A stretch of DNA of 64,000 nucleotides from Desulfovibrio sp. (GCA_017528345.1 JAFXOX010000081.1:1-64000); one strand, 5' to 3'; numbered from the stretch's first letter, positions 21,847 to 59,477 are shown. Notes: a model not told the origin generated them from the sequence alone. Made by a program: numbers and translations.

Positions 21847-22056
21847 ATGGAAACAATTGTTCGCGCCCTGCATTCGACCCTGTCCGTCATGCGGTCCACA
21901 GTGATCGGATTGTCATCAGGCCAGACCGATATCTTCGAGGGGAGCATGCTCCTCAACAGGGAACGTGCGAAATTCATCGCGGCGGCGAAAGCGCTCCGCC
22001 TTGAGGCCGAGATGCGCTGGGCGGCCTTCGACGCGCTCTTCAGCAAGACTGCGTGA
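21847..22056 (+). CDS. Small hypothetical protein
   Basis: A 69-residue protein starts at 21847 with a strong GGAGG site 6 bases before the ATG. It reads METIVRALHSTLSVMRSTVI and ends FDALFSKTA. It is helical, without signal peptide, and belongs to no family I recognise. It follows the HigA-like stop by 14 bases, so it was probably in the same operon. The stop is 150 bases before the ankyrin gene. Confidence 0.6.
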   Translation: METIVRALHSTLSVMRSTVIGLSSGQTDIFEGSMLLNRERAKFIAAAKALRLEAEMRWAAFDALFSKTA

Positions 22057-22205
22057 GGAGAACACGCTTAAAGGGAATACATGCCCCAATCGAGCAGGCG
22101 TGGCCGGATTCCCGGCCCGCGTCTCTCACACCACCTGATATGAAAAGACAACAACCACCTCCCGCCTCCGAGAGATCTGTGGAGCCTGGCGCAAGGAGAT
22201 CGAAC

Positions 22206-24515
22206 ATGCTGAAGCAATGCCTCTTGGCATCGGCCATTATTCTGCTGCTGGAAACGACGGCTTGGGCGAACATCTGGAAAGCGGCGGAGAATGGTGATGT
22301 GCAGACCGTCCTGAAGGAGATCGCAGACGGCGCGGACGTGAACGCGAGGGACGAGCACCAATGGATGCCCCTGCACTTGGCGACGGAAGCGGGCAATGCG
22401 GAAATGGTCAGGCTCCTTATTGCCAAGGGGGCGGACGTGAATGCAAGAGGCTGGAACGACGAGACGCCACTGCATCGGGCCGTGTTTTGGGGGAAAGCCG
22501 ACATGATCGATCTGCTTTTAGCCAATGGCGCGGACGTGAACGCGAAAGACTGCCAGGGCAGGACGCCGCTGATCTCCGCTGGGAGTTGCCACACAGCCGC
22601 CGTCGTGAAATCGCTTCTTGCCGGGGGCGCGAACGTGAACGCGAAAGACAAGTTCGGCTTGACACCGCTCCATGAAGCGGCGGATTCCGGGAGTGCCGAG
22701 GCTGCGAAGCTGCTTCTTGAAAAAGGCGCCGAAGTGAACGCGAAGAGCGGCAGTGGAGAGACGCCGTTAAACAAGGCGATAAACAGCTGTTATGCAGACA
22801 TGGCCGCGCTGCTTATCACCCATGGCGCCGACGTGGCTTGCGACGGTAAATCAGGGCTGACTCTCCTGCATCGCGCCGTCATCTTGCGGGATGGCGAGAC
22901 GGCGGCTTCGCTCGCGGCACGCAGGGAGGTTGTCAGCCGAAAAGATGCGAAAGGCAGGACTCCGCTGCATCTTGCTGGAATTCTTGGCTATGCGGACATG
23001 GTCCGTCTGCTCCTTGCAAACGGCGCCGAAGTGAACGCGAAGGATAATGAAGGTCAGACGGCGCTGTCATTGGCGTTGGAGAAAGGCCGTGCGGATATTG
23101 TCAGCCTGATCCTTGATAGCGGGGCCGACGCTAACGCGAAAGACAAGAAAGGAAAGACCGCGCTGCACAAGGCGGCGGTTGCCGGCAATGCGGAAATTGC
23201 CGGGCTCCTCATCGCCAAGGGCGCGCAGGTGAACGTGAAAGACGCGGTCAATATGACGCCGCTGGAGAGCGCCGTGGACAACGGGCATGCGGACCTTGTC
23301 AGCCTGCTTATCGACAAAGGCGCCAACGTCAATGCGAAAGGTACGTATCACCAAACGCCGCTGCATAAGGCTGCGGATATAGGTCGCGTTGACATGGCCA
23401 GAATGCTGATCGCCAAGGGCGCCGACGTGAACGCAACAGATTATGGCGGCAATACGCCGCTTTGCATCGCCGCGGAAAAAGGCAACGCTGACATGGTCAG
23501 GCTGCTTCTCGCCAAGGGCGCGAATGTGAATGCGAAAGGCAAGGACGGCGTAACACCGCTGCATATAGCCGCGGATTATGGACGAATTGACGTTGTCGAA
23601 ACGCTCCTCGCCAAGGGCGCGAAAGTGAACGCAACAGATTATGGCGGCAATACGCCGCTTTGCATCGCCGCGGAAAAAGGCAACGCTGACATGGTCAGGC
23701 TGCTTCTCGCCAAGGGCGCGAATGTGAATGCGAAAGACAAGGACGACGTAACACCGCTGCATATAGCCGCGGATTATGGACGAATTGACGTTGTCGAAAC
23801 GCTCCTCGCCAAGGGCGCCGACGTGAACTCTAAAGATGATGGGGGCAGTACACCGCTCTCAATGGCCTCGGAAAGCGCCAGCACCAGCATGATTGAGCTG
23901 CTTCTCGCCAACGGCGCAGACGTGAACGCGAAAGATGAGGACGGCGTTACGCCGCTGCATAAAGCGAAGACTGAGGAGATAGCCAAGCTGCTCATTGAAA
24001 AAGGTGCCCGGGATACGCCGGATGAGGATGGCGAAACGGCGCTGCATGAGTTTTGCTTCAAATCCTTTGTTGACGCGGTCAGGCTCTTGATCGAGAAAGG
24101 CGCTGATGTAAACGCTAAAGACAGCGATGGCAGGACGCCATTGCACAGAACCGCTAACGGGGGGAATGCCTATATTGTCAGCCTGCTCGTTGCCAAGGGC
24201 GCAGACGTGAATGCGAATGATAGTGACGGCAGAACGCCGCTGCACATTGCGGCGGAACACATGCACGCGGACGCCGCCGAAGCGCTCATCGCCAGAGGAG
24301 CCGACGTGAACGCTAAAGACAAGTACGGCATGACGCCCCTGCACATCGCAGCTAAAGAGGGGAATGAGAATGAGGTGAAGCTCCTCATAGCTCATGGCGC
24401 GGGCAGGAACGCGAAAATCTCAGGCGGGGAATACGACGGCTGCACGCCGCTCGACATCGCGGAGAAGATGAAGTGGGAAGGAACAGTCAATCTGCTGAAA
24501 GCAGCAACGCCTTGA
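22206..24515 (+). CDS. Secreted ankyrin-repeat protein
   Basis: The start at 22206 (AAGGAG site, 7-base spacing) gives 769 residues. It begins with a signal peptide (MLKQCLLASAIILLLETTAW, cut after AWA) and then NIWKAAENGDVQTVLKEI, the capping repeat. More than 20 ankyrin repeats follow, each with the TPLHxAA and V-N-A-K-D signatures, to the end. No catalytic domain is present. Ankyrin repeats bind proteins, and export would place this one in the periplasm or outside. A 198-bp tandem duplication lies at 23430-23825. A paralogue (25776-28511) shares the signal peptide, cap and C-terminal GGEYDGCTPL segment. Immunity to a toxin or envelope binding are possible roles. Confidence 0.92.
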   Translation: MLKQCLLASAIILLLETTAWANIWKAAENGDVQTVLKEIADGADVNARDEHQWMPLHLATEAGNAEMVRLLIAKGADVNARGWNDETPLHRAVFWGKADMIDLLLANGADVNAKDCQGRTPLISAGSCHTAAVVKSLLAGGANVNAKDKFGLTPLHEAADSGSAEAAKLLLEKGAEVNAKSGSGETPLNKAINSCYADMAALLITHGADVACDGKSGLTLLHRAVILRDGETAASLAARREVVSRKDAKGRTPLHLAGILGYADMVRLLLANGAEVNAKDNEGQTALSLALEKGRADIVSLILDSGADANAKDKKGKTALHKAAVAGNAEIAGLLIAKGAQVNVKDAVNMTPLESAVDNGHADLVSLLIDKGANVNAKGTYHQTPLHKAADIGRVDMARMLIAKGADVNATDYGGNTPLCIAAEKGNADMVRLLLAKGANVNAKGKDGVTPLHIAADYGRIDVVETLLAKGAKVNATDYGGNTPLCIAAEKGNADMVRLLLAKGANVNAKDKDDVTPLHIAADYGRIDVVETLLAKGADVNSKDDGGSTPLSMASESASTSMIELLLANGADVNAKDEDGVTPLHKAKTEEIAKLLIEKGARDTPDEDGETALHEFCFKSFVDAVRLLIEKGADVNAKDSDGRTPLHRTANGGNAYIVSLLVAKGADVNANDSDGRTPLHIAAEHMHADAAEALIARGADVNAKDKYGMTPLHIAAKEGNENEVKLLIAHGAGRNAKISGGEYDGCTPLDIAEKMKWEGTVNLLKAATP
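23430..23825 (+). repeat. 198-bp tandem duplication inside the ankyrin gene
   Basis: Two almost identical 198-bp units (23430-23627 and 23628-23825) each encode two ankyrin repeats (NATDYGGNTPLCIAAEKGNA and onward). Only a few codons differ (for example KGKDGV versus KDKDDV). The period keeps the reading frame, so the protein grew by two repeats recently. Confidence 0.95.
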
Positions 24516-25094: not shown

Positions 25095-25775
25095 ATCAAG
25101 AGAGTGTTTTCTCCTCGACTTTCGACGGATCGAGCCGTAGTCCCGCCCTTTTCAGCTTGTACGTGTCACAGAGTTTTGCCCCACCGTACCCCTCCCATAA
25201 CCTGATGTCACCTCATGACTGGAAGGGTGTGCCTAGGGGGGCGACTTGCTCAACGTATTTTTGCATGAATCTTTAGGCCCTGCCACGGCCAAGGTCCTTG
25301 GAGAGGTCTTACTGGCCTCCCGGGGCAAAGGGGGGGGGATGGGTTATGCATTGAAAGAGAAAGCCGTTGCGCTCTTCTGCAAAAGAGAGAAGTGCGCGTA
25401 CGGCTCACAGTGCTTTGCCTTCAAAAACAAAACAAGAGAACTGTAGCCCCCCCGTGTGTATGTTGACATTTTTAGCAGGGTGTCCGCACGGAAGAATCCA
25501 AAAGCTGACTCGATTTCACGGCGTCTTTTGAGCGCCTCTTCGATGTTCGAGAGTATGGTCGTGGGTAATCGATCCGGGTGCAGAGTTCGAAAAATATTAC
25601 GTGATCCTCTCTGTGCAAGCTGAATACGCAAAGGGCATTGTGGTCTTGCTGCTTTCCTTCTTCAAGAAAATATGTCATCAGTACGGTGCAACAGCGCATA
25701 CCATAAGGACAGACAAGCTTGTCAATATGTTGCGTTTCTGTGAGAGTACACGCGCGTCCCGCAAAGGAGAGATAT
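25095..25775. other. Gene-free stretch between the two ankyrin genes
   Basis: About 680 bases with no gene that I can support. An open frame on the minus strand (25344-25631) reads EEALKRRREIESAFGFFRA, which loosely resembles the end of a transposase, but I could not assign a family. A run of nine G residues lies at 25332-25340. The last ~60 bases hold the ribosome site of the second ankyrin gene. Confidence 0.4.
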
Positions 25776-28511
25776 ATGGTACAACAATGCTTGTGTGCTA
25801 TTGCTATAGTACTGCTGATATCTGGGTCGGCTTGGGGGAATATTTGGGATGCAGCAAGGGAAGGGGATGTTCAGACTGTCCAAAAGGAAATCGAAAGTGG
25901 AGTTGCCGTAAGCGCGGTGGACAGTGATTTCATGACCCCGCTCCACTGGGCAGCAATCCGCGGGCAGGTGGAGATGATTAAATTCCTCATTGCCAAGGGC
26001 GCTGCCGTTGACGCGAAAGATATCGATAATAGGACACCGCTCACAAACATGCTGGAGAATGGTAATGGGGCAGAAGCATGGTTCATGGAGGTGAGCAAAC
26101 TGCTCATTGCCAACGGTGCCGACGTGAATGTGAAGGATCGCTATGGCATGACAGCGCTCCACTGGGCAGCTGCTCTGGGGGATGCGGGGCTGGTTAGCTT
26201 GCTTCTTGCCAAAGGGGCTGAGATCAACTCGAAAAACAATGCCAGTGGGATACCACTTCATTCAGCAGCAGTTATGGGCTTCGCTGATGTGACCTCTATA
26301 CTTCTTGCCCACAGGGCTGACGTGAATGCGAACGATAAGGACAACGAAACACCGCTGCACAGAGCAGCAGCCGAAGGTCATGCTGAGGTGGTCACACGTC
26401 TGCTTCTGGATAATGGGGTCGAAGTCAACGCTCAGGATGTAAAAGGCGAGTCCGCATTACATAAAGCAGCAGTCAATGATCATGCTGAGGTGGTTAAGCT
26501 CCTTCTGGCCAATGGAGCTCAGATCAATGCTACGGATATGCACGGCAAGACCTCTGTACACAAGGCAGCAGAAAATGGTCACGCCGATGTGGTTGCGCTC
26601 CTTTTGGCCAAGGGTGCCGATGTGGTCTGCAATGAAAAAACAGGGCTTACGCAATTGCACCGCGCTGTTATTAGGCGCAATATGGCGATGATTAGCTCCT
26701 TGTCACAGGACAAAACGCTGATCAACCAAAAAGATGCAGACGGTCAAACCCCTTTACATTTTGCCGCTCTTCTTGGGGATGTTGACGTCGTGAAGCTCTT
26801 GCTGGCCAACAAAGCGGACGTCGATTTGAAGGACAACAAGAAAAAAACGCCCCTGGACGGAGCACATGAGAAAGGCTCTACCGATGTAGTCGTGCTCCTT
26901 CTTGAAAGCAGCGCGAACAAGAGCGTGCAGGGTACTGCCCTGTTGCATGAGGCTGTGAAAAATAACCAGCTCAGCTGGGTTACAGTCCTTCTTGAGAAGG
27001 GCGCTGATGTGAATGGGAGAGACGTCCAAGGGCTTACACCACTGCATCTGGTTAAAAATGTCGATATTGCCAAGCTGCTCATAGAGAAGGGCGCTGATGT
27101 GAACGCGAGAAATGAAGAGGATGAGACGCCTTTATACAGTTGCGTGGGAATGAGTGATAATCGAGACCTGATTAGGCTGTTGATAGAGAAAGGCGCTGAT
27201 GTTAATGCGCAAACCAAGTCCGGATGGACTGCGCTGCATTGGGTTGAGAATGTCGATATTGCCAAGCTGCTCATAGAGAAGGGCGCTAATGTTAATGCGC
27301 AAACCAAGTCCGGATGGACTGCGCTGCTTTATGTTGTCTGTTCTGAAAATGAGTACCCAATTGAGCTGCCACAACTACTCATTGCCAATGGTTCCGACGT
27401 CAACGCGTGCTTGTTAGATAGTGACAATGGCTATTTTGGGAGAACGGCGCTGTACTGTGCGGCCAATCGGGGGCGTGTGGACGTGTCTAGGCTCTTGATT
27501 GACAAGGGCGCGGATATCAATGTGAAAGACCAGAACGGTGAAACACCGCTGATAACAGCTTTAGATAATGGTCATGCCGACGTGGCCATGCTCTTGATCG
27601 ACAAGGGTGTGAATGTGAGGCTGCAAAGCAACCATGGCATGAGTCCCTTGCATGGAGCTGCGAGTAGTGGCTTGATTGACGTGGTCAGGCTGCTCCTTGA
27701 AAAAGGAGAGGATGTGAATGTGGCAACCGACAGCGGCTTCACAGCTCTGCACGCTGCCGGGAAGCATAGTAACGTAATCAGACTGCTTATCGACAAGGGA
27801 GCAAACGTCAACGCGAAACTCACGGAATGGGACCCAGGCCAGACGCCCCTCTATAGGGCAGAGACAGGTGCCGTTGCCAGGCTCCTTATTGAAAAGGGCG
27901 CTGACGTGAATGTGAAAGACAATTCTGGCCAAACCCCGCTGCACGAAGCTGTAATCAGAGGCAATGAGGATGTTGTCGCGGTTCTTCTTGAGAAGGGTGC
28001 GGATGCGCAAGCACAGGATACAAAGGGTGACACCCCACTGCACAATGTATGGAGAGTTAGCGTGGCCGATATGCTTCTTAGGCAGGGCGTGAACGTGAAT
28101 ACGAAAAATTATGAGGGACAAACGCCGCTGCACATTGCTGGTGCAGATTCTATGTTGTATCCTGACATGGCTGAATTTCTCATCGCCAACGGCGCTGCCG
28201 TGAATGTCAAAGATCAGAGCGGCGTAACGCCTCTACACCTTGCGGCAAAGAAAGGTTGGAGGAACGTGCTGGAGCTGCTTCTTGCCAGGGGTGCTGACGT
28301 GAACGCGAAAGACAAGACTGGCATGACGCCCCTGCACCTTGCTGCCAAGGAAGGCCATCTTGGGGTAGTGACGGTACTCCTTAAACGAGGTGCCGATAGA
28401 AACGCAAAAATTGTAGGCGGAGAATATGATGGTTGCACACCGCTTGCTCTAGCAGAGGAAATGGAGGAAGCAGAAATCGTCACACTGCTGAAGAATGATA
28501 CGCCTGAATAG
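25776..28511 (+). CDS. Secreted ankyrin-repeat protein, second paralogue
   Basis: The ATG at 25776 (AAAGGAGA site) gives 911 residues. The signal peptide (MVQQCLCAIAIVLLISGSAW, cut after AWG) and cap (NIWDAAREGDVQTVQKEIES) match the first ankyrin protein. About 25 ankyrin repeats follow, with several irregular, shorter ones in the middle (LTPLHLVKNVDIAKLLIEKG units with a missing second helix). The C-terminus repeats the GGEYDGCTPLALAEEME segment of the paralogue. GC is lower than in the first copy and the two differ throughout, so the duplication is old. The protein would act outside the cytoplasm; no enzymatic part is present. Confidence 0.92.
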   Translation: MVQQCLCAIAIVLLISGSAWGNIWDAAREGDVQTVQKEIESGVAVSAVDSDFMTPLHWAAIRGQVEMIKFLIAKGAAVDAKDIDNRTPLTNMLENGNGAEAWFMEVSKLLIANGADVNVKDRYGMTALHWAAALGDAGLVSLLLAKGAEINSKNNASGIPLHSAAVMGFADVTSILLAHRADVNANDKDNETPLHRAAAEGHAEVVTRLLLDNGVEVNAQDVKGESALHKAAVNDHAEVVKLLLANGAQINATDMHGKTSVHKAAENGHADVVALLLAKGADVVCNEKTGLTQLHRAVIRRNMAMISSLSQDKTLINQKDADGQTPLHFAALLGDVDVVKLLLANKADVDLKDNKKKTPLDGAHEKGSTDVVVLLLESSANKSVQGTALLHEAVKNNQLSWVTVLLEKGADVNGRDVQGLTPLHLVKNVDIAKLLIEKGADVNARNEEDETPLYSCVGMSDNRDLIRLLIEKGADVNAQTKSGWTALHWVENVDIAKLLIEKGANVNAQTKSGWTALLYVVCSENEYPIELPQLLIANGSDVNACLLDSDNGYFGRTALYCAANRGRVDVSRLLIDKGADINVKDQNGETPLITALDNGHADVAMLLIDKGVNVRLQSNHGMSPLHGAASSGLIDVVRLLLEKGEDVNVATDSGFTALHAAGKHSNVIRLLIDKGANVNAKLTEWDPGQTPLYRAETGAVARLLIEKGADVNVKDNSGQTPLHEAVIRGNEDVVAVLLEKGADAQAQDTKGDTPLHNVWRVSVADMLLRQGVNVNTKNYEGQTPLHIAGADSMLYPDMAEFLIANGAAVNVKDQSGVTPLHLAAKKGWRNVLELLLARGADVNAKDKTGMTPLHLAAKEGHLGVVTVLLKRGADRNAKIVGGEYDGCTPLALAEEMEEAEIVTLLKNDTPE

Positions 28512-33701: not shown

Positions 33702-34355
33702 CTATTTTTGCCATGGCCTTGCCGTCGTCTCGTGCCGCCGGACATACGCCATGATGTCATCTTCGTGCCAGACGGTGGATTTAGCGGATAATCTGATTCC
33801 TTTCGGGATCTCGCCACGTTGGGCAAGCGCCCAGAAATGAGACTTCGAGCAGCCGAGCAGTGCGGCGGCCTCCTTGGCGTGCAGCATCCGCTCTGCGGAA
33901 CGGGCGGGCTCGGCCTGCGCCGGCCTCGGCGGTGTCACGGCCGGCTCGCGCCTGCCGCACTGCTGAATCGCCTTGATGTAATCCGGATTCTCCTTCTCGA
34001 GATGCAGGACATCGCCGAGGAGAAACCAGAGGAAGTCCTGCAGCATTGGGTCTCCGTTTTCGTCGACCGTCTCTTTGCCGCAGTCCGATGCCACCGGGCG
34101 GTTGCGCGCGTCGCGAACTTCCTGATGGAATTCATGCACTCTGACGAAGCGCAGCTCTCCGCGCCGCATGGGATGCAGATACATCGTCTCCTTGTCGGGC
34201 GTTCCGCTCGACGGGATCTCGATCTCGTACGGCGTCAGACCGTCAGGGTCGTTGATGAGACGCTCGATTTCATAGAGGGGTGCGTGCGGCCATCGTTTGA
34301 TGACTGCCCAGATGGACAGGCACTCGGCAATCGGGTAGCATTTTCCGTGTTCCAT
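33702..34355 (-). CDS. Excisionase-type helix-turn-helix protein
   Basis: The likely start is the ATG at 34355 (MEHGKCYPIAECLSIWAVIK), giving 217 residues. The N-terminal 130 residues are of unknown type and Trp/Pro-rich. A Pro-rich linker (TPPRPAQAEPARSAERM) precedes an AlpA/excisionase-like winged helix-turn-helix (LHAKEAAALLGCSKSHFWAL, then RGEIPKGIRLSAKSTVWHED with the DDIMAYVRRH helix). Such domains occur in prophage and integrative-element regulators, so it may be a relic of an integrated element that built the island. It has its own terminator at 33573-33602. Confidence 0.75.
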   Translation of the reverse strand: MEHGKCYPIAECLSIWAVIKRWPHAPLYEIERLINDPDGLTPYEIEIPSSGTPDKETMYLHPMRRGELRFVRVHEFHQEVRDARNRPVASDCGKETVDENGDPMLQDFLWFLLGDVLHLEKENPDYIKAIQQCGRREPAVTPPRPAQAEPARSAERMLHAKEAAALLGCSKSHFWALAQRGEIPKGIRLSAKSTVWHEDDIMAYVRRHETTARPWQK

Positions 34356-34569
34356 GGCCGGAATTATACCGCAGGCCGCGGGCATTGCCAAGAAAAACGT
34401 TCTGGGCTAAAATGCTCGCCCTCTGTTTTCGGGTCGCCGTCCGATCCGAAACGGCACCTTTTATCTCTGTTGGTAAATTTGTAGGTAACAAAAAAGTTAT
34501 GAAAATTTTTTTATAATGAATTTCAAATAGATATCTTCTACTTTGAAAACCTGAATTGACCTGATTAAA

Positions 34570-35221: not shown

Positions 35222-35257
35222 GCTGTGTTACCTGAATACGGTAACGCAGCTTTTTTT
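35222..35257 (+). terminator. Strong rho-independent terminator after repeat copy B
   Basis: GCTGTGTTACC (35222-35232) pairs with GGTAACGCAGC (35240-35250) with one G-U pair, followed by seven T residues (35251-35257). Confidence 0.85.
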
Positions 35258-35341: not shown

Positions 35342-36097
35342 TTAGCGGTTTTTCTGCAGCTCAAGAAGTCCTGCGAGGATACTCCAGGGATTGGGAGGGC
35401 AACCTGGGACAAAGAGATCCACAGGTATTTCTTCGGGAATGCCGCCAAGGCACTGGGAGCTTGTGGCAAAGAGCCCGCCGGATATGGCACAGGAGCCCAC
35501 AGCAATAACAATGCGTGGGTCAGGCACGGCGCGGTAGGTGTCAAAGAGGGCCGGGGCCATATTCTTAGTCACAGGGCCAGTGACAAGGATGCCGTCGGCA
35601 TGTCGAGGTGAGGCCACAAAGTCAATGCCAAAGCGGCCAAGATCGTAGAGGAGGGTGCCGAGCACATTGGTGTCGGCTTCACAGGCCGCACAGCCGCCGC
35701 AGCTGACCTGGCGCAACTTGAGAGAGCGGCGGAAGAGGGGTTTTGTGAGAGCTTGAGGAGTGGGAAAGGCTGCGCTATCGCCTGCTTTGACAAGAAGTGC
35801 CTTACGATCTGCGCTGGCAACGTGGTAGTTGCGGCCAAAGGCTATGGCCTTTTGCGGGCAGCATTGGGCGCAGGCGCCGCAGAAGGTGCAGCGGCCAAGA
35901 TCAATAGCCGGGTGGCCATCGATGTGTTGTATGGCCTCAGTTGGACAGAGATCCTGGCAGATATGGCAGTTTGCGCAGTTGATGGCCTTGATCTCGGGTC
36001 TTCCTTTGAATCTGCCCGGCAGAAACGGTTCCTTGGCCGGAAAGTCGAGGGTGCGGTATTTTTGATGAAAGCGCTCTTTGATAATGCCAAACATCAT
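35342..36097 (-). CDS. Ehr/Hyf-type small subunit fused to a two-cluster ferredoxin domain
   Basis: From the double ATG at 36097 the protein has 251 residues. The N-terminal part is a 2[4Fe-4S] ferredoxin (CANCHICQDLCP at 41-52 and CTFCGACAQCCP at 70-81), like HyfH/HycF. The C-terminal part is the NuoB/HycG-type small subunit with cluster ligands in SCGGCAACEADTN (~132), GSCAISGG (~207) and GCPPNPW (~235). These are separate proteins in formate hydrogenlyase, so the fusion is notable. It ends the operon and starts 4 bases after the large-subunit stop. It would pass electrons from ferredoxin towards the membrane part. Confidence 0.88.
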   Translation of the reverse strand: MMFGIIKERFHQKYRTLDFPAKEPFLPGRFKGRPEIKAINCANCHICQDLCPTEAIQHIDGHPAIDLGRCTFCGACAQCCPQKAIAFGRNYHVASADRKALLVKAGDSAAFPTPQALTKPLFRRSLKLRQVSCGGCAACEADTNVLGTLLYDLGRFGIDFVASPRHADGILVTGPVTKNMAPALFDTYRAVPDPRIVIAVGSCAISGGLFATSSQCLGGIPEEIPVDLFVPGCPPNPWSILAGLLELQKNR

Positions 36098-36101
36098 AGC
36101 C

Positions 36102-37577
36102 TCACAGGTCGTAGCCGCAGTAGGAGAGATTGAAGCTCTTATTGCAGAGGGGAAAATCCGAGATCTGATTGTCTCGCAGAGCCATGGCAAGGCCCTGCCA
36201 GTTGTGGAAGGAGGGATCAATCACCTTGTAGACCTGAAAGCCCGAATGCTCGTTAGTAACCGCAAGGTGCACGATTTCCCCGCGAAAGCCCTCCACTTGT
36301 GCCACAGCAAGCATCCCTGTCGGAAGGATTGGTGATGGGGCATACCCCCGCTCTTCAGGGCTTCCTTCCTCAAGGGCGCAGAGATCGTCTTCGACCATGG
36401 CAAAGGAGGCGCGCATCTCTTCTTCGCGCACGAGAACCCGTGCCAGCACGTCCCCTGTCTCACATTTTGCCGGAATGAAGTTTTGCCCAGGCCGAAGAGG
36501 GGCTGTCAGGCGTGCGTCGCAGACAACACCTGCAGCTTTGGCACAGACGCCCACAAGGCCAAGGGCTTTGGCATCTTTGAGGGAGACTGTGCCTGTTGTG
36601 CGCAGACGGTCAAGAACGCTTTCACTTGTCAGCATCACCTTGACAGAGCCCAGGGCATCCCGGCGGGCAAAGTCGAGGCGATGGATGAGATCAGCACAGA
36701 GCTCTGCGTCAAGGTCATTGTGGACGCCGCCTACGGCAATGTGGCCGCGCCCAAAGCGATTGCCTGTGAGAATGGCTGTCATGGTCAGAACGTCGCCGCG
36801 AATGCGTCCATTCCAGGATGAGGTCGGGAGAAAGCCGGTATCACCGGCAATGGCGCCAAGATCGCCAATGTGATTGGCAAGGCGCTCCAGTTCAAGGGCA
36901 AGCCTGCGCAGATGCCAGCTGCGATCAGAGACCGTCAGGCCTGTCAGGCGCTCCATGAGCACAGCATGGGCCAGGGCATGCCCAATACTCGTATCGCCGG
37001 CTGCGCATTCAAGCAGAGGCAGCCTTGCTGAGGGCTTGGCCTGGAGCAGGCATTGCTCAAGGCCTCTGTGTTGATAGCCGAGGGCAATTTCCAGATTGAG
37101 GACATTTTCGCCAAAGCATTGAAAGCGGAAATGGCCGGGCTCAATGATACCGGCATGGACAGGCCCCACGGCAACTTCGTGGACTTCACGGCCATCTGTG
37201 CGGAAGAAGGGATAGCGCTGCGGGGTATTGTCCGGGGTTTGGCGCACAGGTTTGAGCCAGGGGTGGCCTGGAAATTTCACCCCATAGTCTTCGAAAAGCT
37301 CGCGCTCAAAAAGCTGCACAGAAGGATAGCTGTCTGCCAGGGATGGGAGGCTTGTCAGAGGCTTGGCGCAGAAGGCTGTGAGCTTTTGTGTGGCATCGTT
37401 TGTGAAGACGGCCAGAAGGCTTGTTTTTTCCGCTTCTCGTGCCAGGGCTGTGAGGCAGAGCAGGCGTAAGCCCTGGGCAAGGCAGCTTCCCAGTTTTTCG
37501 GCAAAAGCCTCAGCCTCGTAGACAGGAAGATCTGCCAGCGCAATAGCCTGATGATAGGCAAAGGTCGTGTCAGTCAT
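36102..37577 (-). CDS. Ehr-type large subunit (HyfG/NuoCD-like) lacking NiFe ligands
   Basis: The 491-residue protein joins a NuoC-like 30-kDa domain (residues ~1-135, with FERELFEDYGVKFPGHPWLK) to a NuoD/hydrogenase large-subunit domain. Real [NiFe] large subunits carry two CxxC pairs. Here the first site reads LLECAAGDTSIGHALA (one Cys at 191, no CxxC), and the C-terminus reads PLCNKSFNLSYCGYDL, with no DPCxxC. The metal site therefore cannot form, and hydrogen chemistry is not expected. This is the defining feature of energy-converting hydrogenase-related (Ehr) complexes. It is the fifth gene of a six-gene operon. Confidence 0.88.
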   Translation of the reverse strand: MTDTTFAYHQAIALADLPVYEAEAFAEKLGSCLAQGLRLLCLTALAREAEKTSLLAVFTNDATQKLTAFCAKPLTSLPSLADSYPSVQLFERELFEDYGVKFPGHPWLKPVRQTPDNTPQRYPFFRTDGREVHEVAVGPVHAGIIEPGHFRFQCFGENVLNLEIALGYQHRGLEQCLLQAKPSARLPLLECAAGDTSIGHALAHAVLMERLTGLTVSDRSWHLRRLALELERLANHIGDLGAIAGDTGFLPTSSWNGRIRGDVLTMTAILTGNRFGRGHIAVGGVHNDLDAELCADLIHRLDFARRDALGSVKVMLTSESVLDRLRTTGTVSLKDAKALGLVGVCAKAAGVVCDARLTAPLRPGQNFIPAKCETGDVLARVLVREEEMRASFAMVEDDLCALEEGSPEERGYAPSPILPTGMLAVAQVEGFRGEIVHLAVTNEHSGFQVYKVIDPSFHNWQGLAMALRDNQISDFPLCNKSFNLSYCGYDL

Positions 37578-37585
37578 ACTATCTC

Positions 37586-39073
37586 CTAGCCCACAAGGGA
37601 GGCTGCCCGCTCAAGGAAATGCCAGAGCGGATCCGGAATCCAGAGACCCAGGGTGAGGACAATAAGGGCCAGAACAAGTGGGGGAAGCACGCTCAAAAGG
37701 GGCTCTTGCGGGCTTTTGGGCATATCCAGGGGACGGCTTCCCTGCACCATGCGCAGACAGGCGACCGAGAGCCCCACAAAGATAATGGCCAAAAGCACAA
37801 GGTAGGAGACGGCGATCAGCGTACTTCCTTGGGCGAGAATGCCTTTGAAGATGAGCAGCTCGCTCACAAAAAGCCCAAAGGGCGGAGAGCCTGCGATGGC
37901 AAAAAAGCCCGCAAGCCAGAGGGCACCTGTCCAGGGCATGGTCCAGCGCATGCCACGCACGTCATAGCTTGAATAGGTATGGTAGCGGGCAAGGATATTG
38001 CCTGAGAGGAGAAAAAGCAGGCATTTGGTGCAGCTGTGCACAAGGGCATGGAACATGGCGCCCTGGCAGGCTAGGCCACCCATGCCGATACCAAGAGCTA
38101 AAATACCCATATGCTCAACGCTTGAATAGGCGAGCATGCGTTTATAGTGGCCCTGGCCGACAATGAAGACGGCTGCGGTTGCCAGCGAAAAAAGCCCAAA
38201 GAAGATGAGCATCTTTGAGGATAGGTCGCCCAGCTGTGCCGCCTGCATAATCTGGTGGCCACGCAGAAGCCCGAGCATGGCGCAGTTGAGGAGCGCGCCT
38301 GAAAGGAGGGCTGAGACGAGCGAGGGCGCCTGGCTGTGGGCATCGGGAAGCCAGTTGTGGAGGGGGGCTAGGCCCATCTTGGTGCCGTAGCCAACGAGTA
38401 GAAAGACAAAGGCTGCGATCAGCCAGGTGGGATTGGCCTGCTTGGCATGGGCGACAAACCAGGCAACCTGGTCAAAGCCCTCAACCTGGGCCTCCTTGCT
38501 GTAGAAGGCGACAGAGAGGAGAATATTGCCAAGCAGGGCAAGGGCAATGCCCACAGAACAGATGATCAGATATTTCCAGGTGGCCTCAAGGGAACTTTTG
38601 TGGCGGTGAAAATAGATGAGGGGCGCACTGGAAAGGGTGGTTGCTTCAATGCTCACCCACTGTACCCCCATATGCGGGGTAATGGTCCCAAGGCTCATGG
38701 ACGCGAGAAAAAAACAGAGAAAAGCGGCAAAACGGCGCTCGGGCTGATTGGTGAAGTGGCCGTGGTCTAAAAGAATATTGGTGTGGATACCAATGCGCTC
38801 CTCATCGGCTAGATAGGAGACGGCATAGAAGGAGACGACCAGAAAAAGCAGACTTGCGATGGCAAGGAAAAGGGAGCCCAGGGCATCGGGGGCAAGCATG
38901 CCTGAAAGGGCCGTTGGGGTGTGGCCGAGAGAGACCTCGCGGACAATGCAGGCTGTGAGCGTTGTGTGCAAAATGGCTGTGACCGGCAAAAGCAGGCGAC
39001 AGAGCCAGGCCTTGCCAAAGAAGATCATGACAAGGCCCGTGATCACGGGAATGGCAATGAGCGCAATGAGCAT
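37586..39073 (-). CDS. hyfF: Hyf/Ehr proton-pumping membrane subunit (NuoN/HyfF-like)
   Basis: A 495-residue membrane protein of the proton-conducting antiporter family (Complex I NuoL/M/N type) with about 13-14 hydrophobic helices. Family landmarks: VSIEATTLSSAPLIYFHR with the conserved Glu of helix 5, GYGTKMGLAPLHNWLPDAHS (helix 7 Lys and the HNWLPDAH loop) and GQGHYKRMLAYSSVEHMGIL (helix 8). It begins 8 bases after HyfE. It would move protons or sodium ions, driven by electron flow through the hydrophilic arm. Confidence 0.92.
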   Translation of the reverse strand: MLIALIAIPVITGLVMIFFGKAWLCRLLLPVTAILHTTLTACIVREVSLGHTPTALSGMLAPDALGSLFLAIASLLFLVVSFYAVSYLADEERIGIHTNILLDHGHFTNQPERRFAAFLCFFLASMSLGTITPHMGVQWVSIEATTLSSAPLIYFHRHKSSLEATWKYLIICSVGIALALLGNILLSVAFYSKEAQVEGFDQVAWFVAHAKQANPTWLIAAFVFLLVGYGTKMGLAPLHNWLPDAHSQAPSLVSALLSGALLNCAMLGLLRGHQIMQAAQLGDLSSKMLIFFGLFSLATAAVFIVGQGHYKRMLAYSSVEHMGILALGIGMGGLACQGAMFHALVHSCTKCLLFLLSGNILARYHTYSSYDVRGMRWTMPWTGALWLAGFFAIAGSPPFGLFVSELLIFKGILAQGSTLIAVSYLVLLAIIFVGLSVACLRMVQGSRPLDMPKSPQEPLLSVLPPLVLALIVLTLGLWIPDPLWHFLERAASLVG

Positions 39074-39081
39074 GAGGCCTC

Positions 39082-39705
39082 CTAGTCGCGCAGACTTCTG
39101 AAGTGGTCCACATCCATGGAGGCAAAGGAATCGCTGATGCGGTTGATGGCAATGCCCATGACAAATACAGCCACAAAGACGTCGAGGAGAAGTGCCAGTT
39201 CAAACCAGGTGGTGCCCTGGGTCATGAGTGGCATACCAAGGAGAAAAATACCGTTTTCAGCGGCCAGATAGCCGATGACCTGGGTGATGGCCTTGACGCG
39301 GCCAATAATGAGAATGAGCCCGCAGAAAAGCGTTGTGAGACCCAGGGGGAGAAAGAGCTCGGGAAAGAGATTATGGGTGAGATCTGAGCCCAGGCGGCCG
39401 TCAAGCCAGATGGCAAAGGCAAGGCCCGCCATGCCGGCAATGACATCAATGGCTACAAGTCTGTGGGGACAAATGAGCGCCTCAGAGGGCATCTTTTTGA
39501 GCGTGCGCCAGAGAAGGCCAGGCAGGACAAGCCCCTTGATGAGGAGGACTGCGACAGTCAAGACCGTATGCCCAAAGTGGAAGAGGAGGATGGCGAGCAG
39601 AAAACCTTGCAGGGCTGTATATTTGGTCATCTGCACAACGCGTGCTGTTCCCAAAAGCAGAAAGTTGGAGAGCACGAGCAGATAGAGACAGATGTTCAGA
39701 AACAT
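39082..39705 (-). CDS. hyfE: Hyf/Ehr membrane subunit (HyfE/NuoK-like)
   Basis: A 207-residue protein with six or so hydrophobic helices (LCLYLLVLSNFLLLGTARVV at the start, QVIGYLAAENGIFLLGMPLM with the conserved Glu near residue 155). Its length matches HyfE (~216) rather than NuoK (~100). It lies between the NuoH-like and the NuoN-like genes, separated by 2 and 8 bases, in the same order as in hyf operons. It is part of the ion-translocating membrane arm. Confidence 0.9.
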   Translation of the reverse strand: MFLNICLYLLVLSNFLLLGTARVVQMTKYTALQGFLLAILLFHFGHTVLTVAVLLIKGLVLPGLLWRTLKKMPSEALICPHRLVAIDVIAGMAGLAFAIWLDGRLGSDLTHNLFPELFLPLGLTTLFCGLILIIGRVKAITQVIGYLAAENGIFLLGMPLMTQGTTWFELALLLDVFVAVFVMGIAINRISDSFASMDVDHFRSLRD

Positions 39706-39707
39706 GA

Positions 39708-40646
39708 TTACCTCATCTGGGAGAAAATCAACACAAGCGCAGCCATGGCACAGGCCCCGCCCAGAAAGGTGGTGACGCGCTTGAGCCGCAGGCGTGCCAT
39801 GGAAGACTCCACAAGGCCTATGGCACAGGCAACGAGAAAAATAACCGCTATCCAGAGCAGAAAGCCCATGGCTCCGAGATCCGGCACAAGCAGGCCCGCC
39901 ACAAGACTGGCAAAGAACCAGAGTTTGAGGGCTGAGGCATAGAGAATAAGGGCCAGATTGGGTCCAGAATGATCGAGGATCATGACCTCGTGAATCATGG
40001 TCAGCTCAAGGTGGGTTGTGGGGTCATCCACGGGAATGCGACTATTTTCCACAAGCAGCAGCAAAAAGAAGACGATGGGCAGCAGCAGAAGTTCAAACTT
40101 GCCTGAGAGCCAGGCGCCGGCGCTTTGGCCGCCAAAGAGCAGGGAAAGGGAAAAGGCCCAGTCATGGGTTTCGCCAAGATCAAGATGCAGGCTTGTCAAT
40201 ACCGAGATGGCCAGGAAAAAGATGGGCTCGGCAAGGGCAGAAAATGCGGCCTCGCGGCTAGCCCCCATGCCCTCAAAGGATGAGCCTGTCTCAAGGGCTG
40301 CCACAATCATGGCAAAGCGGCCAAGCCCGAGAAGGTAGGCTGCCAGCAGAAAGTCGCCGGCAAAGGCAAGGGGTGAGGCATTGCCGCCAAGGGGCAGAAG
40401 GCAAAGCGCTGCTAGGATGGCCACAAGCTGCAGGGCCGGGGCAAGCTGAAAGAAGAGGCCTGTTGTGGGACTGATGACCTCACTTTTGCGGAAGAGCTTC
40501 GCGAGATCATAATAGGTCTGGAGCAGGGGCTTGCCGTGGCGGCCGGCCACCTTGGCTTTGACGCGGTTGATGACGCCGAAAAGGAGCGGGGCCAGCAGCA
40601 GGGCCAGGGCCAGATTGGCGAGATAGGAGAAAAACGCCGTATTCAT
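39708..40646 (-). CDS. hyfC: Hyf/Ehr membrane subunit (HyfC/NuoH-like)
   Basis: The 312-residue protein matches the NuoH/HyfC/HycD family that anchors the hydrophilic arm and shapes the quinone or ion path. Landmarks: GVINRVKAKVAGRHGKPLLQ, TYYDLAKLFRKSEVISPTTG near the N-terminus and SRIPVDDPTTHLELTMIHEV (~residue 203) with the conserved acidic loop. Eight helices are predicted by eye. Its start overlaps the stop of HyfB by 4 bases (ATGA), indicating translational coupling. Confidence 0.93.
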   Translation of the reverse strand: MNTAFFSYLANLALALLLAPLLFGVINRVKAKVAGRHGKPLLQTYYDLAKLFRKSEVISPTTGLFFQLAPALQLVAILAALCLLPLGGNASPLAFAGDFLLAAYLLGLGRFAMIVAALETGSSFEGMGASREAAFSALAEPIFFLAISVLTSLHLDLGETHDWAFSLSLLFGGQSAGAWLSGKFELLLLPIVFFLLLLVENSRIPVDDPTTHLELTMIHEVMILDHSGPNLALILYASALKLWFFASLVAGLLVPDLGAMGFLLWIAVIFLVACAIGLVESSMARLRLKRVTTFLGGACAMAALVLIFSQMR

Positions 40647-42655
40647 ACGAGCCCCCAGATGAGAAGCCCCACAACCGTTGCCAGAATGTAGAGAATATAA
40701 AGGTGAATTTTGCCGTGCTGGAAGATCTTTAAGGCATTGCAGACGCTTTCAATGGCGGCAAAAAGCGGGCCATAGACATATCTGCGCAGTCTGTCCGGAG
40801 CCTTGACGAGCAGCTGGGAGTATCGGGGAAAAAGTCCGGGCTCCTGGCTGATGCTGACCTTTTGGCCCATGAGGGGCGAGAGCACACGCGCGAGGGGCTC
40901 GGTAAAGGAGGCATCGGTGTACTCAATGCGGGAAGTGCCGCGCTGATAGCCACAAGCCCAGGTCGGCATGAAGCGGATGCCGCGTCTGTGAAGGGTGTGT
41001 TTGCGAAGAGCGACCAGGAGTGCTGTGGCAAGAAGTACGCAGCCAGAGATGGCCGCAACCGTTGTCAGGCTTTGGTCAAGACTTGTGCGCGCCTGGCTGA
41101 AGCCTGTGAGGGTCTGCATGGGAAAGAGCTCGGCAGCAGCCATACCTGTCCCAAGAAAGACAAAGCGTGCCAGAAGACCAAGGGCTAAACAGCCCAAAGC
41201 CAGCACCATGAGCGGCCAGATGCCATGCCAGGATTTTTGATGGACATTTTCGGCAAAGCCTGAGCGCGCAGATCCTAAAAAGACCATGCCATAGGCTTTG
41301 GCGTAGAGCGTCAGGGCCAGGCCGCTTATGGCACAGAGCGCGGCAAAACTTAAGAGCAGGGCCATCTGCCGCTCAGTTGAGGCAAGACTTGAACCGTCAA
41401 GGAGGGAGAGGGCAAGGGTGAGCTCGCCGGTAAAGCCGTTGAAAGGCGGCAGGCACGCAATGGCTGCGCAGCCTGTGGCAAAGCAGGCGGCAAGGACCGG
41501 CATTTTTTTGGCAAGGCCACCCAGCTGCGCCATATTCACGGTGCCTGTGGCATGCAGGACTTCGCCGGCTGCGAGAAAAAGCAAGCCTTTAAAGGTTGCG
41601 TGGTTGAGCATATGCATGAGACAGGCCGCAAGACCAGCGAGAGCCATCCAGCCATTGCCAAGACTTTGGCCGATCATGGCACAGCCAAGTCCCATGGTCA
41701 TGATGCCCATGTTTTCCACACTGGAATAGGCCAGGAGCCGTTTGACATTGCTTTGGGCAAGGGCCTTCAAAATGCCCATAAGCGCTGTACCAAGGCCAAG
41801 GAGGAGAATCAGCCAACCCCACCATTCAGGGGGAATGCCCTTGGGAGATAAGAGCGAGACTGTACGGATGATGCCGTAGAGACCGGCATTGATCATGGCC
41901 CCTGAAAGCAGGGCAGAGACGTGACTTGGGGCGGCAGGGTGGGCTTCAGGCAGCCAGATATGCATGGGGGCAAGGCCTGCCTTGGCGCCAAAGCCTGCCA
42001 GAGCAAGCACAAAGAGCAATGTCCTCTGTGTCTCGGTCAGATTGGTCACAGGTGTCTGCCAGCTGAGACTTCCTGTGCACTGCCAGAAGAGCACAAAGAA
42101 GGCAAGCAGGGCTACCGCTCCCAGGTGGGCTGCCACGAGATAGACCCAGGAGGCATCGCGCACGCGGCTGTCACTGTCGTTGAAGTCAATTAAAAAGAAG
42201 GGGGCAAGGCTCATGATTTCCCAGGATATAAGAAAGAGCACAATGTCCCTGGCGCTGAGCACAAGGGTTAGCCCCAAAAGTAAGAGGAGATAGAAGAGCC
42301 AGTGGACGCCGAGATTGTGCTGACTTGGTCGTTCATGGCGTAAACTCAGAAAACCCTGTATGGCACAGAGAAGCCCAAGACCAAAGACCGGAACCAGAAA
42401 GATGCGGCTTGTGCCATCAAGGGCAAGGGAAAAGGTGCCAAAGGGGAGTCCGAGCTGGGCCTGAAAGCTTGCAAGGGGGGGCTGCCCTGGCCAGAAAAGA
42501 GCAAGAAGGCCACAGACAGAGCCTGCAAGGGTTCCCAAAAGCCCCAGGACATTGGCCAGATGTGCCGACTGCTTGCTCGGTCTGAGCAGGGACGGCACAA
42601 GGCAGGCAAGGGCTGAGAGGGCAAAAATGCCAAGAGCTGCGAGAAAAAAAGGCAT
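40643..42655 (-). CDS. hyfB: Hyf/Ehr membrane subunit (HyfB/NuoL-like)
   Basis: The 670-residue first gene of the operon is a NuoL/HyfB-type ion-pumping subunit. It has about 15 hydrophobic helices. Antiporter-family landmarks: FLISWEIMSLAPFFLIDFND (Glu of helix 5), GFGAKAGLAPMHIWLPEAHP and AQSNVKRLLAYSSVENMGIM (helix 7-8 Lys). HyfB-specific C-terminal hydrophilic loop TWACGYQRGTSRIEYTDASF follows near residue 575, and a last helix ends IWGLV. Length equals HyfB (~672). The start has an AGGAA site 8 bases upstream. Confidence 0.92.
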   Translation of the reverse strand: MPFFLAALGIFALSALACLVPSLLRPSKQSAHLANVLGLLGTLAGSVCGLLALFWPGQPPLASFQAQLGLPFGTFSLALDGTSRIFLVPVFGLGLLCAIQGFLSLRHERPSQHNLGVHWLFYLLLLLGLTLVLSARDIVLFLISWEIMSLAPFFLIDFNDSDSRVRDASWVYLVAAHLGAVALLAFFVLFWQCTGSLSWQTPVTNLTETQRTLLFVLALAGFGAKAGLAPMHIWLPEAHPAAPSHVSALLSGAMINAGLYGIIRTVSLLSPKGIPPEWWGWLILLLGLGTALMGILKALAQSNVKRLLAYSSVENMGIMTMGLGCAMIGQSLGNGWMALAGLAACLMHMLNHATFKGLLFLAAGEVLHATGTVNMAQLGGLAKKMPVLAACFATGCAAIACLPPFNGFTGELTLALSLLDGSSLASTERQMALLLSFAALCAISGLALTLYAKAYGMVFLGSARSGFAENVHQKSWHGIWPLMVLALGCLALGLLARFVFLGTGMAAAELFPMQTLTGFSQARTSLDQSLTTVAAISGCVLLATALLVALRKHTLHRRGIRFMPTWACGYQRGTSRIEYTDASFTEPLARVLSPLMGQKVSISQEPGLFPRYSQLLVKAPDRLRRYVYGPLFAAIESVCNALKIFQHGKIHLYILYILATVVGLLIWGLV

Positions 42656-43122: not shown

Positions 43123-44256
43123 CTAGACGTTCACAAGTTCATAGGTGCGGCTGCCCATGCCAATGGACTCCGCGTATTCCACCTGATGGTAGCCGCGGGT
43201 CTGGGGGTGCTCGGCCTGGAACTTGTCATAGCCTGTGCTGTGGCATTCGTGGTCGCCGATGGCTCGAAGGCTCGGGGTCTCACTGACCAGATCAAAACAG
43301 GCGGTGTCCAGGGCCACGGGATCTGTGGAGGCGAGGATACCAATATCCGGAACCATAGTTGGATCGGACCAGCCGGCACAGTCACACTGCGGGGTGATAT
43401 TCATCAGGAAATTGATGAAGAGGAGACGTCCTTCCTTGCCCTTGAGGGAGCCATAGGCATATTCCACCATGCGCTCAGAGAAGTCTTCATACTCATTGGG
43501 CATGTCAATGCCGATGCCCCCGTTCTTACAGACGCTCATACACTCGTAGCAGCCAAAGCACAGCTCTTTATTGATGACGCAGCGCCGACCTTTTTCCGCC
43601 TTGACCAGAGAGAGCGCCTGGCGCGGGCAGATTTTCACGCACTGGCCACAGCCGATGCAATTGTCTGTGATATTGATATTGCGGCCGTGCTGATCAATTT
43701 TGCCTTCCTGAGGCGCACAGCCCATGGCCAGATTTTTCAACGCGCCGCCAAAGCCGCCAAAGGCGTGGCCTTTGAAGTGGGAGATCACAACCATGGCATT
43801 GGCCGAAAGAATGCCATCGGCAATCTTCACGGATTTGAAATGTTTGAGGTTGACTTCAACCTCACGCCAGGCATGACTTAACACACCATCGGCAATGACC
43901 ACCGGTGCATTGACCACATAGGGGGTAAAACCGTGCAGATAGGCGGTCTCCAGGTGATCTGCGCCATTGTGGCGAAAGGCCTTGTAGAGCGTACAGGTAT
44001 CGGTGAGATAGGGTTTTGCGCCAGAAGCCCGCACCTGATCCACCACCTCTCGCACAAAGGTTGGGTGCACATAGGTATCATTGCCCCGCTCGCCAAAATG
44101 CACCTTGATGGCGCAGAGCTGATCTTCAGCTGAGACCTCAAAGGGTTTGACCTTGTCCTCGAGACCAGCGGCCTTGCAAAGCCTGCGGATCTTGGCAAGC
44201 TTATTGTCTGCAGGATTTTTCACCGTTAATTTGGCAAAATAGACTTTTTCAGCCAT
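43123..44256 (-). CDS. DUF362 iron-sulfur protein with two [4Fe-4S] sites
   Basis: From the ATG at 44256 (GAGG site, 7-base spacing) the protein has 377 residues. It is a DUF362 protein (KVHFGERGNDTYVHPTFVRE, VVISHFKGHAFGGFGGALKN with the conserved His/Gly loop). A bacterial ferredoxin insert carries CIGCGQCVKICP (~214) and CFGCYECMSVC (~246). DUF362/ferredoxin proteins are widespread in strict anaerobes and have an unassigned redox role. The gene is transcribed away from the biotin ligase gene; 271 bases separate their starts. Confidence 0.88.
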   Translation of the reverse strand: MAEKVYFAKLTVKNPADNKLAKIRRLCKAAGLEDKVKPFEVSAEDQLCAIKVHFGERGNDTYVHPTFVREVVDQVRASGAKPYLTDTCTLYKAFRHNGADHLETAYLHGFTPYVVNAPVVIADGVLSHAWREVEVNLKHFKSVKIADGILSANAMVVISHFKGHAFGGFGGALKNLAMGCAPQEGKIDQHGRNINITDNCIGCGQCVKICPRQALSLVKAEKGRRCVINKELCFGCYECMSVCKNGGIGIDMPNEYEDFSERMVEYAYGSLKGKEGRLLFINFLMNITPQCDCAGWSDPTMVPDIGILASTDPVALDTACFDLVSETPSLRAIGDHECHSTGYDKFQAEHPQTRGYHQVEYAESIGMGSRTYELVNV

Positions 44257-44349
44257 GATTTTCCTCACTTTTCTTGGAATAAGCCTTGCCTTCGCACACA
44301 TGTCTTGTGTTTTGTGGGTATTGTCCCGAGTAAGCCATGGCCACAATGT

Positions 44350-44359
44350 GAACATGTTC
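44350..44359. promoter_or_regulatory. Perfect palindrome in the divergent DUF362/birA region
   Basis: GAACATGTTC is a perfect 10-bp palindrome between the divergent starts, within a longer partly symmetric stretch (GTGAACATGTTCTGTG). It is a candidate regulator site; the regulator is unknown. Confidence 0.35.
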
Positions 44360-55306: not shown

Positions 55307-55491
55307 GGGGGCAGGCTTACCCCTGTAACCTGTGCTTGCGTGGAAAATTCGTTGCCAGGGGCCAATATTTGCTTGCTGATTAGTATTCTTCCATTTGAAC
55401 GCCAGTGGCGCAACACTTGAACGTTCGCGTACCTTCTATCCTTGAATTTTTCGGACAGGGATTTGCGGCGTTTGCGTCAATGAGGAAAAAC

Positions 55492-56358
55492 ATGAACAAC
55501 ATCGTTGAGCAGATGCTCTCCCTGCATGCATCGAAGACGCTGAGTGACAAGAAAAACAGCATTAAGGAAGTCGTGCAGGAAATCATTCTGTGCGGATTGT
55601 CACGGGCCGGTTTTTTCCGGGCAGCAGCATTTTACGGGGGCACTGCGCTGAGAATCTTCCATGGCCTTGACCGCTTTTCAGTAGATTTGGATTTTTCGCT
55701 TATGGAACCCAATGTCCATTTTCGTCTCGATGCCTATCTTTCTCTTTTGGAAAAAGAACTTGGAGCATACGGCTTTCGCTTTACAGCTGAAGAAAAGGTG
55801 AAAGCGAACGGGTCTGATGTGAAGTCTGCCTTTGTGAAGGGCAATACTCGTGAACTTATATTGCAGTGTTATGCCGATGAACACCTTGCCAGGACAATTG
55901 CGAGTTCAGAGCGTATCAACGTGAAGATTGAAGTCGATACCACACCGCCTCCGCATGCGGGATTTGAACGACAGTTTCGGCTGCTACCGATACCTTATGA
56001 GATCAACATCTATGACATGCCATCTCTCTTTGCCGGAAAGATCCATGCCGTCCTGTGTCGAGCATGGAAAGGGAGAATCAAAGGCAGGGATCTCTATGAC
56101 TATGTGTTTTATCTGGCGGGGAAGACGCCGGTCAACGTGAAGCACTTACATGCGAGACTGGTTGATTCAGGTTTTGCAAACGCAAGTGAAGATGCGTCGC
56201 TGGAAGACATTAAGGAGATGCTTTACCGGCGTTTTGAAGTCATTGATTATGCTCAGGCAAGAAACGATGTTCTGCCGTTTATCCGTAATCCTTCGTGTCT
56301 TGACATATGGAGCAAAACGTTTTTCCAGTCTATGACAAATAGCCTGAAAGCCCTATGA
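55492..56358 (+). CDS. AbiEii-type nucleotidyltransferase toxin
   Basis: The ATG at 55492 has a GAGG site 6 bases upstream and gives 288 residues. The frame is open from 55405. It has the nucleotidyltransferase motif YGGTALRIFHGLDRFSVDLD (GG then DxD, ~residue 45-65) and the conserved SLFAGKIHAVLCRAWKGRIK GRDLYDYVFYL segment (~residue 180-205) of AbiEii toxins. AbiE modules protect against phages by abortive infection or stabilise DNA. Length and motifs look intact. Confidence 0.88.
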   Translation: MNNIVEQMLSLHASKTLSDKKNSIKEVVQEIILCGLSRAGFFRAAAFYGGTALRIFHGLDRFSVDLDFSLMEPNVHFRLDAYLSLLEKELGAYGFRFTAEEKVKANGSDVKSAFVKGNTRELILQCYADEHLARTIASSERINVKIEVDTTPPPHAGFERQFRLLPIPYEINIYDMPSLFAGKIHAVLCRAWKGRIKGRDLYDYVFYLAGKTPVNVKHLHARLVDSGFANASEDASLEDIKEMLYRRFEVIDYAQARNDVLPFIRNPSCLDIWSKTFFQSMTNSLKAL

Positions 56359-59474: not shown

Positions 59475-59477
59475 GGT

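Follow-up and report, generated by a model that had tools for sequence, protein, structure and literature searches.

The six-gene cluster at positions 35,342 to 42,655 of a 64,000-nucleotide stretch of DNA from Desulfovibrio sp. (GCA_017528345.1 JAFXOX010000081.1:1-64000, hereafter the window) encodes a complete member of the published Ehr family, here in a gut-type Desulfovibrio. The function of Ehr complexes is not known (PMC10284858, PMC4378227, PMC6147122); they were left out of HydDB as non-hydrogenases (PMC5037454), and we found no report in the literature of a measured reaction for any of them. An earlier reading of the window, made by a model that saw only the DNA (the sequence-only reading), had called the electron acceptor unclear, which agrees with published accounts (PMC10284858, PMC10432482, PMC6147122). 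What we add is comparative: judging from alignments and a genome survey, the vacated metal site of the large subunit EhrL appears to be a conserved pocket under selection, and in these widespread complexes the pattern of conservation and of marker genes argues against decay, against H2 and against a universal, obligatory quinone acceptor. The comparison also singles out residues and host groups for narrowing the acceptor candidates.

A conserved site in place of the nickel-iron ligands

EhrL was aligned with HycE and HyfG of E. coli, Hyf and Ech of Desulfovibrio, and NuoD. The sequence-only reading had described both CxxC nickel-iron motifs as missing, and the alignment bears this out: the two peptides it quoted are present in EhrL, and the ligand positions are occupied by A193, T196, S485 and G488, leaving none of the four Ni ligands. 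EhrL thus lacks the two Ni-Fe-binding CxxC motifs of group 4 [NiFe] hydrogenases and has the form that distinguishes Ehr, a group-4-like large subunit without these ligands. The replacement recurs throughout a sample of 107 EhrL proteins. At the first site (L1), A193 is found in 105/107, G194 and D195 in 107/107 and Thr or Ser at position 196 in 105/107, and at the second (L2) S485, Y486, C487 and G488 are unchanged in all 106 rows that are readable there. The repetition in 107 sequences rules out sequencing error or chance resemblance as the cause of the loss.

Across the same sample the loop of codons 138–149 is invariant or nearly so, as are D195, C154, C487, H141, E146, D246 and R432. C487 lies one residue away from a vacated Ni-ligand position, and D195, C154, C478 and C487 are specific to Ehr. 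The same genome encodes, on contig 47, a second PF00346 protein, a canonical Ech with the motifs ERVCSLCSNSH and DPCVSCTER; because this Ech keeps both CxxC pairs, the loss of Ni-Fe ligands is specific to the Ehr complex.

The ratio of non-synonymous to synonymous substitution rates (dN/dS) of ehrL was 0.03–0.12 for close pairs and about 0.15–0.2 at greater, partly saturated distances, which together with the invariance of the replaced site indicates that the site is under selection and has not decayed. A 2026 paper called the Geobacter Ehr nonfunctional (PMC13194489), and the reading of Ehr as a decayed hydrogenase, as stated there for G. sulfurreducens, can point to the complete loss of the four Ni-Fe ligands. 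Nevertheless, we give it almost no credence, as it is already contradicted by conservation: the replaced site is strictly conserved across phyla, the low dN/dS of ehrL and the intact electron relay and pump residues (see below) tell the same way, and the abundance of Ehr proteins in Geobacter responds to conditions, varying with the electron donor (PMC7894505).

Pocket, electron relay and pump residues

Within the pocket, E146 of EhrL aligns with HycE E193 (HycE sites after PMC9474812) and I145 with Nqo4 H38. The canopy Arg is retained (R432), the canopy Asp is replaced by N483, and the proton path to bulk is kept through H236, E387 and R347; the last is a Lys in the EhrL of this strain and an Arg in nearly all others. 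The residues that bind quinone in complex I, Nqo4 H38 and Y87, are absent, all Ehr compared having I145 and G194 there, while D246 occupies the position of Nqo4 D139, a complex-I-like feature not found in the hydrogenases compared. An AlphaFold2 model of EhrL (pLDDT 85.5, pTM 0.89) has as its best match in the PDB HycE of the E. coli formate hydrogenlyase (TM 0.83).

The eight ferredoxin Cys and the four proximal-cluster Cys of EhrS are conserved, the proximal cluster having CxxC like HycG and not the Cys-Cys of NuoB. In the EhrS of the window a further Cys stands directly before this CxxC, where most EhrS carry Ala. EhrA retains E146, K225 and K305, whereas HycC has L208 and Q285, and EhrA C568 aligns with HycC C537, a residue of the coupling interface (PMC9474812). 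Five acidic residues of EhrB (E132, E140, D207, E214 and D225) are conserved and align with HycD; E150, E169 and D175 of EhrC are conserved at at least 95%, and E143, K232 and K311 of EhrD are conserved. Both EhrA and EhrD thus carry the Glu/Lys pair and central Lys of complex I superfamily pumps, and the proposal of the sequence-only reading that ferredoxin is the likely donor and that ions are pumped fits these relay and pump residues.

Candidate acceptors and proposed reaction

We surveyed marker genes in 47 Ehr-bearing genomes, whose completeness was not reported. HypD, which is needed for building Ni-Fe centres, was not found in 11/47. True matches to MqnC/MqnE were present in 22/47 and to MenD in 5/47; among the 20 genomes with neither, 17 also lacked both a MqnA/D match and an above-cut-off prenyltransferase of the TIGR01475 type. 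No quinone marker tested was present in any of the Elusimicrobia sampled (6/6) or in most Lentisphaerae, in agreement with the missing quinone pathways of Ehr-bearing Riflemargulisbacteria (PMC6349859). PF01040 (UbiA) was discarded as a quinone marker, as it matched 47/47 genomes and 14/14 controls and was uninformative. Since HypD was not found in 11/47 genomes, nor any quinone marker tested in 17/47, neither H2 nor quinone would qualify as a family-wide substrate. Protons, giving H2, thus appear very unlikely as acceptor, and it is unlikely that the family as a whole depends on a quinone; that marker absence across whole lineages reflects assembly loss is also unlikely.

The host genome (estimated as 100% complete) has pyruvate:ferredoxin oxidoreductase, Ech, Ehr and the futalosine menaquinone genes. 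NuoD and RnfD were not found in it, and Ehr and Ech are the sole ferredoxin-linked pumps found among those sought (no complex I, no Rnf). No complementarity between Ehr and Rnf was apparent by eye within the genus.

The likeliest reading, to which we give roughly even chances, is that a functional Ehr uses reduced ferredoxin to reduce a small molecule, with proton coupling, inside the emptied pocket and pumps ions at the same time. Electrons from reduced ferredoxin, supplied for instance by the host pyruvate:ferredoxin oxidoreductase, would enter EhrS at the pair of [4Fe-4S] clusters in its ferredoxin domain, pass to a hydrogenase-type proximal cluster suggested by its conserved ligands, and reach a substrate in the EhrL pocket that holds Ni-Fe in hydrogenases. 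This substrate is probably small and protonatable, given the retention of E146 and of the proton path (R432, H236, E387, R/K347), and its reduction with proton coupling would be the simplest reading of the pocket, in which the canopy Asp is N483 and whose surroundings in the sequence may be marked by the Ehr-specific D195, C487, C154 and C478 and by D246. Reduction would be passed on via the interface of EhrA C568, EhrL H141 and EhrB to the two intact antiporter-like channels, which would pump H+ or Na+. Several points weigh against this proposal. The AlphaFold model, made without EhrS, gives low confidence for the active-site loops 138–152 and 487–491, and no gene for an electron-transfer partner is conserved beside ehr when the neighbours in 80 loci are clustered. 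Marker absence could partly stem from incomplete metagenome-assembled genomes (MAGs) or from unknown pathways, and three spirochaetes without Mqn/Men retain a UbiA-type enzyme, which is ambiguous. Moreover, the acceptor may vary by lineage, in which case the quinone-free relatives would leave menaquinone possible in this organism.

Ehr could act here as a ferredoxin:menaquinone oxidoreductase and so amount to a shortened complex I that has no NADH module, which we consider rather unlikely. The architecture of the complex fits, the host makes menaquinone via the futalosine route (MqnC 485 bits, MqnA/D, prenyltransferase) and lacks NuoD and Rnf, and D246 corresponds to an Asp that is conserved in complex I. 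Such an activity would have to do without H38 and Y87, in a family in which 17/47 genomes show no tested marker of quinone synthesis, and with Asn in place of a canopy Asp that is strictly conserved in complex I (PMC9474812). It is unlikely, though conceivable, that the vacated Ni-Fe pocket of EhrL has been remodelled into a new active site for reducing an acceptor not recognised so far, where D195, T/S196, S485 and C487 together with C154/C478 might form a site with a metal other than Ni-Fe or with a reactive thiol. If this were true, anaerobes would have a respiratory pump independent of both H2 and quinone.

In an improbable alternative, Ehr works in the manner of MBS (formerly MBX) of Pyrococcus furiosus, and S-S bonds of polysulfide, persulfide or a thiol disulfide are cleaved reductively, either by C487/C154/C478 or by the proximal cluster itself. 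Desulfovibrio is a genus of the sulfur cycle, and Ehr has three family-specific invariant Cys. MBS, too, has lost H38/Y87 and the Ni-Fe ligands and uses ferredoxin (PMC7684303). However, its activity needs a three-Cys proximal cluster with one non-Cys-ligated Fe, whereas EhrS appears to provide four conserved Cys with hydrogenase spacing; Ehr also keeps the MbhL E21-type Glu that is absent from MBS (PMC7684303) and is present in lineages without known sulfur reduction. Very improbable, in our view, is a formate dehydrogenase docked on Ehr that passes formate electrons inward, as proposed for Margulisbacteria and Saganbacteria (PMC6349859). Formate does raise the Ehr subunits of Geobacter (PMC7894505), but neither a formate dehydrogenase nor a HycB/HyfA-like linker lies in or beside ehr here or recurs among the neighbour clusters of the 80 loci, and the question of the acceptor would remain even then.

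Family and relation to known systems

Among genomes of Bacteria and Archaea, a scan gave 489 EhrL relatives, the best 80 of which came from Desulfovibrio, Geobacter, Lentisphaerae, Verrucomicrobia, Elusimicrobia, Spirochaetes, Krumholzibacteriota, KSB1 and others. The gene order A-B-C-D-L-S is repeated in many phyla in loci with enough flanking DNA. The nearest relatives of this EhrL are in Desulfovibrio-type MAGs (74 and 70% identity), one of them from goat rumen, which places the host in Desulfovibrio. In an unrooted tree with long branches, EhrL forms a single clade (support 100/99) that includes the Geobacter loci L052 and L053 and stands apart from Ech, Nuo and Hyc/Hyf. The assignment to Ehr made by the sequence-only reading is upheld by this clade, by the loss of Ni-Fe ligands and by the gene set, with antiporter-like, NuoH-like and HyfE-like subunits, EhrL and EhrS in one cluster. 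Its description of the complex as Hyf-like is loose, since nothing in Ehr corresponds to HyfA or HyfD and EhrL lies apart from Hyc/Hyf; a link between complex I and group 4 is not shown by an unrooted tree, the hydrogenase-like E146 and complex-I-like D246 being at most compatible with one. One "EhrL", from Desulfotomaculum ruminis, was reported with all four Cys (PMC3569383), so that the name is used for true hydrogenases too.

Geobacter-type Ehr has the same six subunit types, gene order, large-subunit clade and lack of Ni-Fe ligands; a second EhrA is frequent there and in other loci, whereas that of Desulfovibrio has a single EhrA and lacks the HTH-EIIA regulator gene (see below). Group 4 hydrogenases (Hyc/Hyf, Ech) share with Ehr the closest fold (HycE), the beta1-beta2 Glu, the canopy Arg, the four-Cys proximal cluster and an EhrA-type subunit with an ND3-like tail, but Ehr has lost the four Ni ligands and the canopy Asp and forms a separate clade. 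Compared with formate hydrogenlyases FHL-1 and FHL-2, it lacks HycB/HyfA and HyfD, and its HyfH-like and HyfI-like parts are fused. With complex I (NuoB, CD, H, I, L, M, N) it shares the architecture of quinone module plus ion module and the D246/D139 position, yet it has no NADH module (no NuoEFG in the cluster), no H38 or Y87, and at the N2 position a CxxC where complex I has Cys-Cys. MBS is likewise ferredoxin-fed, without a working Ni-Fe site or H38/Y87, and differs in its three proximal-cluster Cys, its antiporter set and its lack of the Glu kept by Ehr.

Genes neighbouring ehr were clustered with a codon-position filter against antisense open reading frames (ORFs) in GC-rich loci. A fusion gene of HTH_17 and PTS EIIA-2 (PtsN-like) adjoins ehr in 26/80 loci (for example L061:1194-1916 and L087:3101-3811) from Geobacter, Lentisphaerae, Verrucomicrobia, Spirochaetes and others, mostly directly upstream and read in the same direction, which suggests control of ehr linked to the phosphotransferase system (PTS); this gene was not found in the present Desulfovibrio genome. 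In many non-Desulfovibrio loci, namely L077 (1310-3259) and about 16 others, ehr comes with another gene for an EhrA-like antiporter. Locus L032, from a genome of the same order (G043), encodes a large subunit of another kind, 514 aa long and devoid of CxxC pairs (LSERISGKSAFSHS ... LATFGLSVAENDR), in which the loop His and canopy Arg are also missing and which lies on a long branch outside Ehr.

Gene organisation and other features of the window

The boundaries and six genes given by the sequence-only reading are correct, with complete membrane and small subunits. All six ehr ORFs are open, co-directional and tightly packed (Table 1), ehrA and ehrB overlapping by 4 bp. The small-subunit ORF as mechanically called begins with a TTG inside ehrL; the start of EhrS is likely the ATG at 36097, 4 nt beyond the ehrL stop codon. 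Residue numbers of EhrS count from codon 36103, and subtracting 2 gives those of the 251-aa form. Subunits were assigned by Pfam and NCBIfam profiles: EhrA matched Proton_antipo_M (1.1e-53) and the hydrogenase-4 subunit B model (8.9e-151, under that model's cut-off), EhrC weakly matched the NCBIfam hydrogenase 4 membrane subunit (7.4e-11, under cut-off), EhrL matched Complex1_49kDa (2.2e-27) and Complex1_30kDa (4.4e-08), and EhrS matched Fer4_9 and Oxidored_q6, joining HyfH-like and HyfI-like parts in one protein.

Table 1 Features of the ehr cluster and its upstream neighbour.
Feature	Coordinates	Strand	Description
EhrA	40643..42655	-	670 aa; HyfB/HycC-like antiporter subunit, ND3-like C-terminal extension
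EhrB	39708..40646	-	312 aa; NuoH/HycD-like membrane anchor, E-channel acids; NADHdh 1.9e-29
EhrC	39082..39705	-	207 aa; HyfE-like membrane subunit
EhrD	37586..39073	-	495 aa; HyfF-like antiporter subunit; Proton_antipo_M 6.3e-47
EhrL	36102..37577	-	491 aa; NuoC-like and NuoD-like fusion, large subunit without Ni-Fe ligands
EhrL codons 138-149 GPVHAGIIEPGH	37131..37166	-	beta1-beta2 loop, H141 and proton-donating E146
L1 site, EhrL codons 193-196 (A-G-D-T)	36990..37001	-	C-x-x-C in hydrogenases
L2 site, EhrL codons 485-488 (S-Y-C-G)	36114..36125	-	C-x-x-C in hydrogenases
EhrS	35342..36097	-	251 aa (likely start); fusion of a ferredoxin domain (2x[4Fe-4S]) and a NuoB/HycG-like small subunit
DUF362 and 2x[4Fe-4S] protein	43123..44355	-	upstream of ehrA; Pfam

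The DUF362-ferredoxin gene is possibly an accessory to ehr, the link being weak: apart from this genome, only the nearest relative (L035) has it in this place and orientation, and it recurs as a neighbour in near relatives only. Around the cluster, a promoter scan gave promoters at chance level only and a repeat scan likewise nothing else; a strong terminator-like hairpin lies at 35222–35250, read on the plus strand. Downstream of ehrS, an AlpA/excisionase-like helix-turn-helix protein (33702–34391, minus strand) perhaps marks the edge of an integrated element.

Elsewhere in the window, a [FeFe] hydrogenase adjoins a NuoF/GltD-like flavoprotein (57675–61466, minus strand), resembling the HydDB neighbour rule for group A2 (PMC5037454). 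An AbiEii-like nucleotidyltransferase of the type IV toxin-antitoxin family is encoded at 55405–56358 (plus strand), and two proteins of 820 and 930 aa (22053–24515 and 25719–28511, both plus strand) consist almost entirely of ankyrin repeats, their genes lying near a small autotransporter beta-domain ORF (18827–19453).

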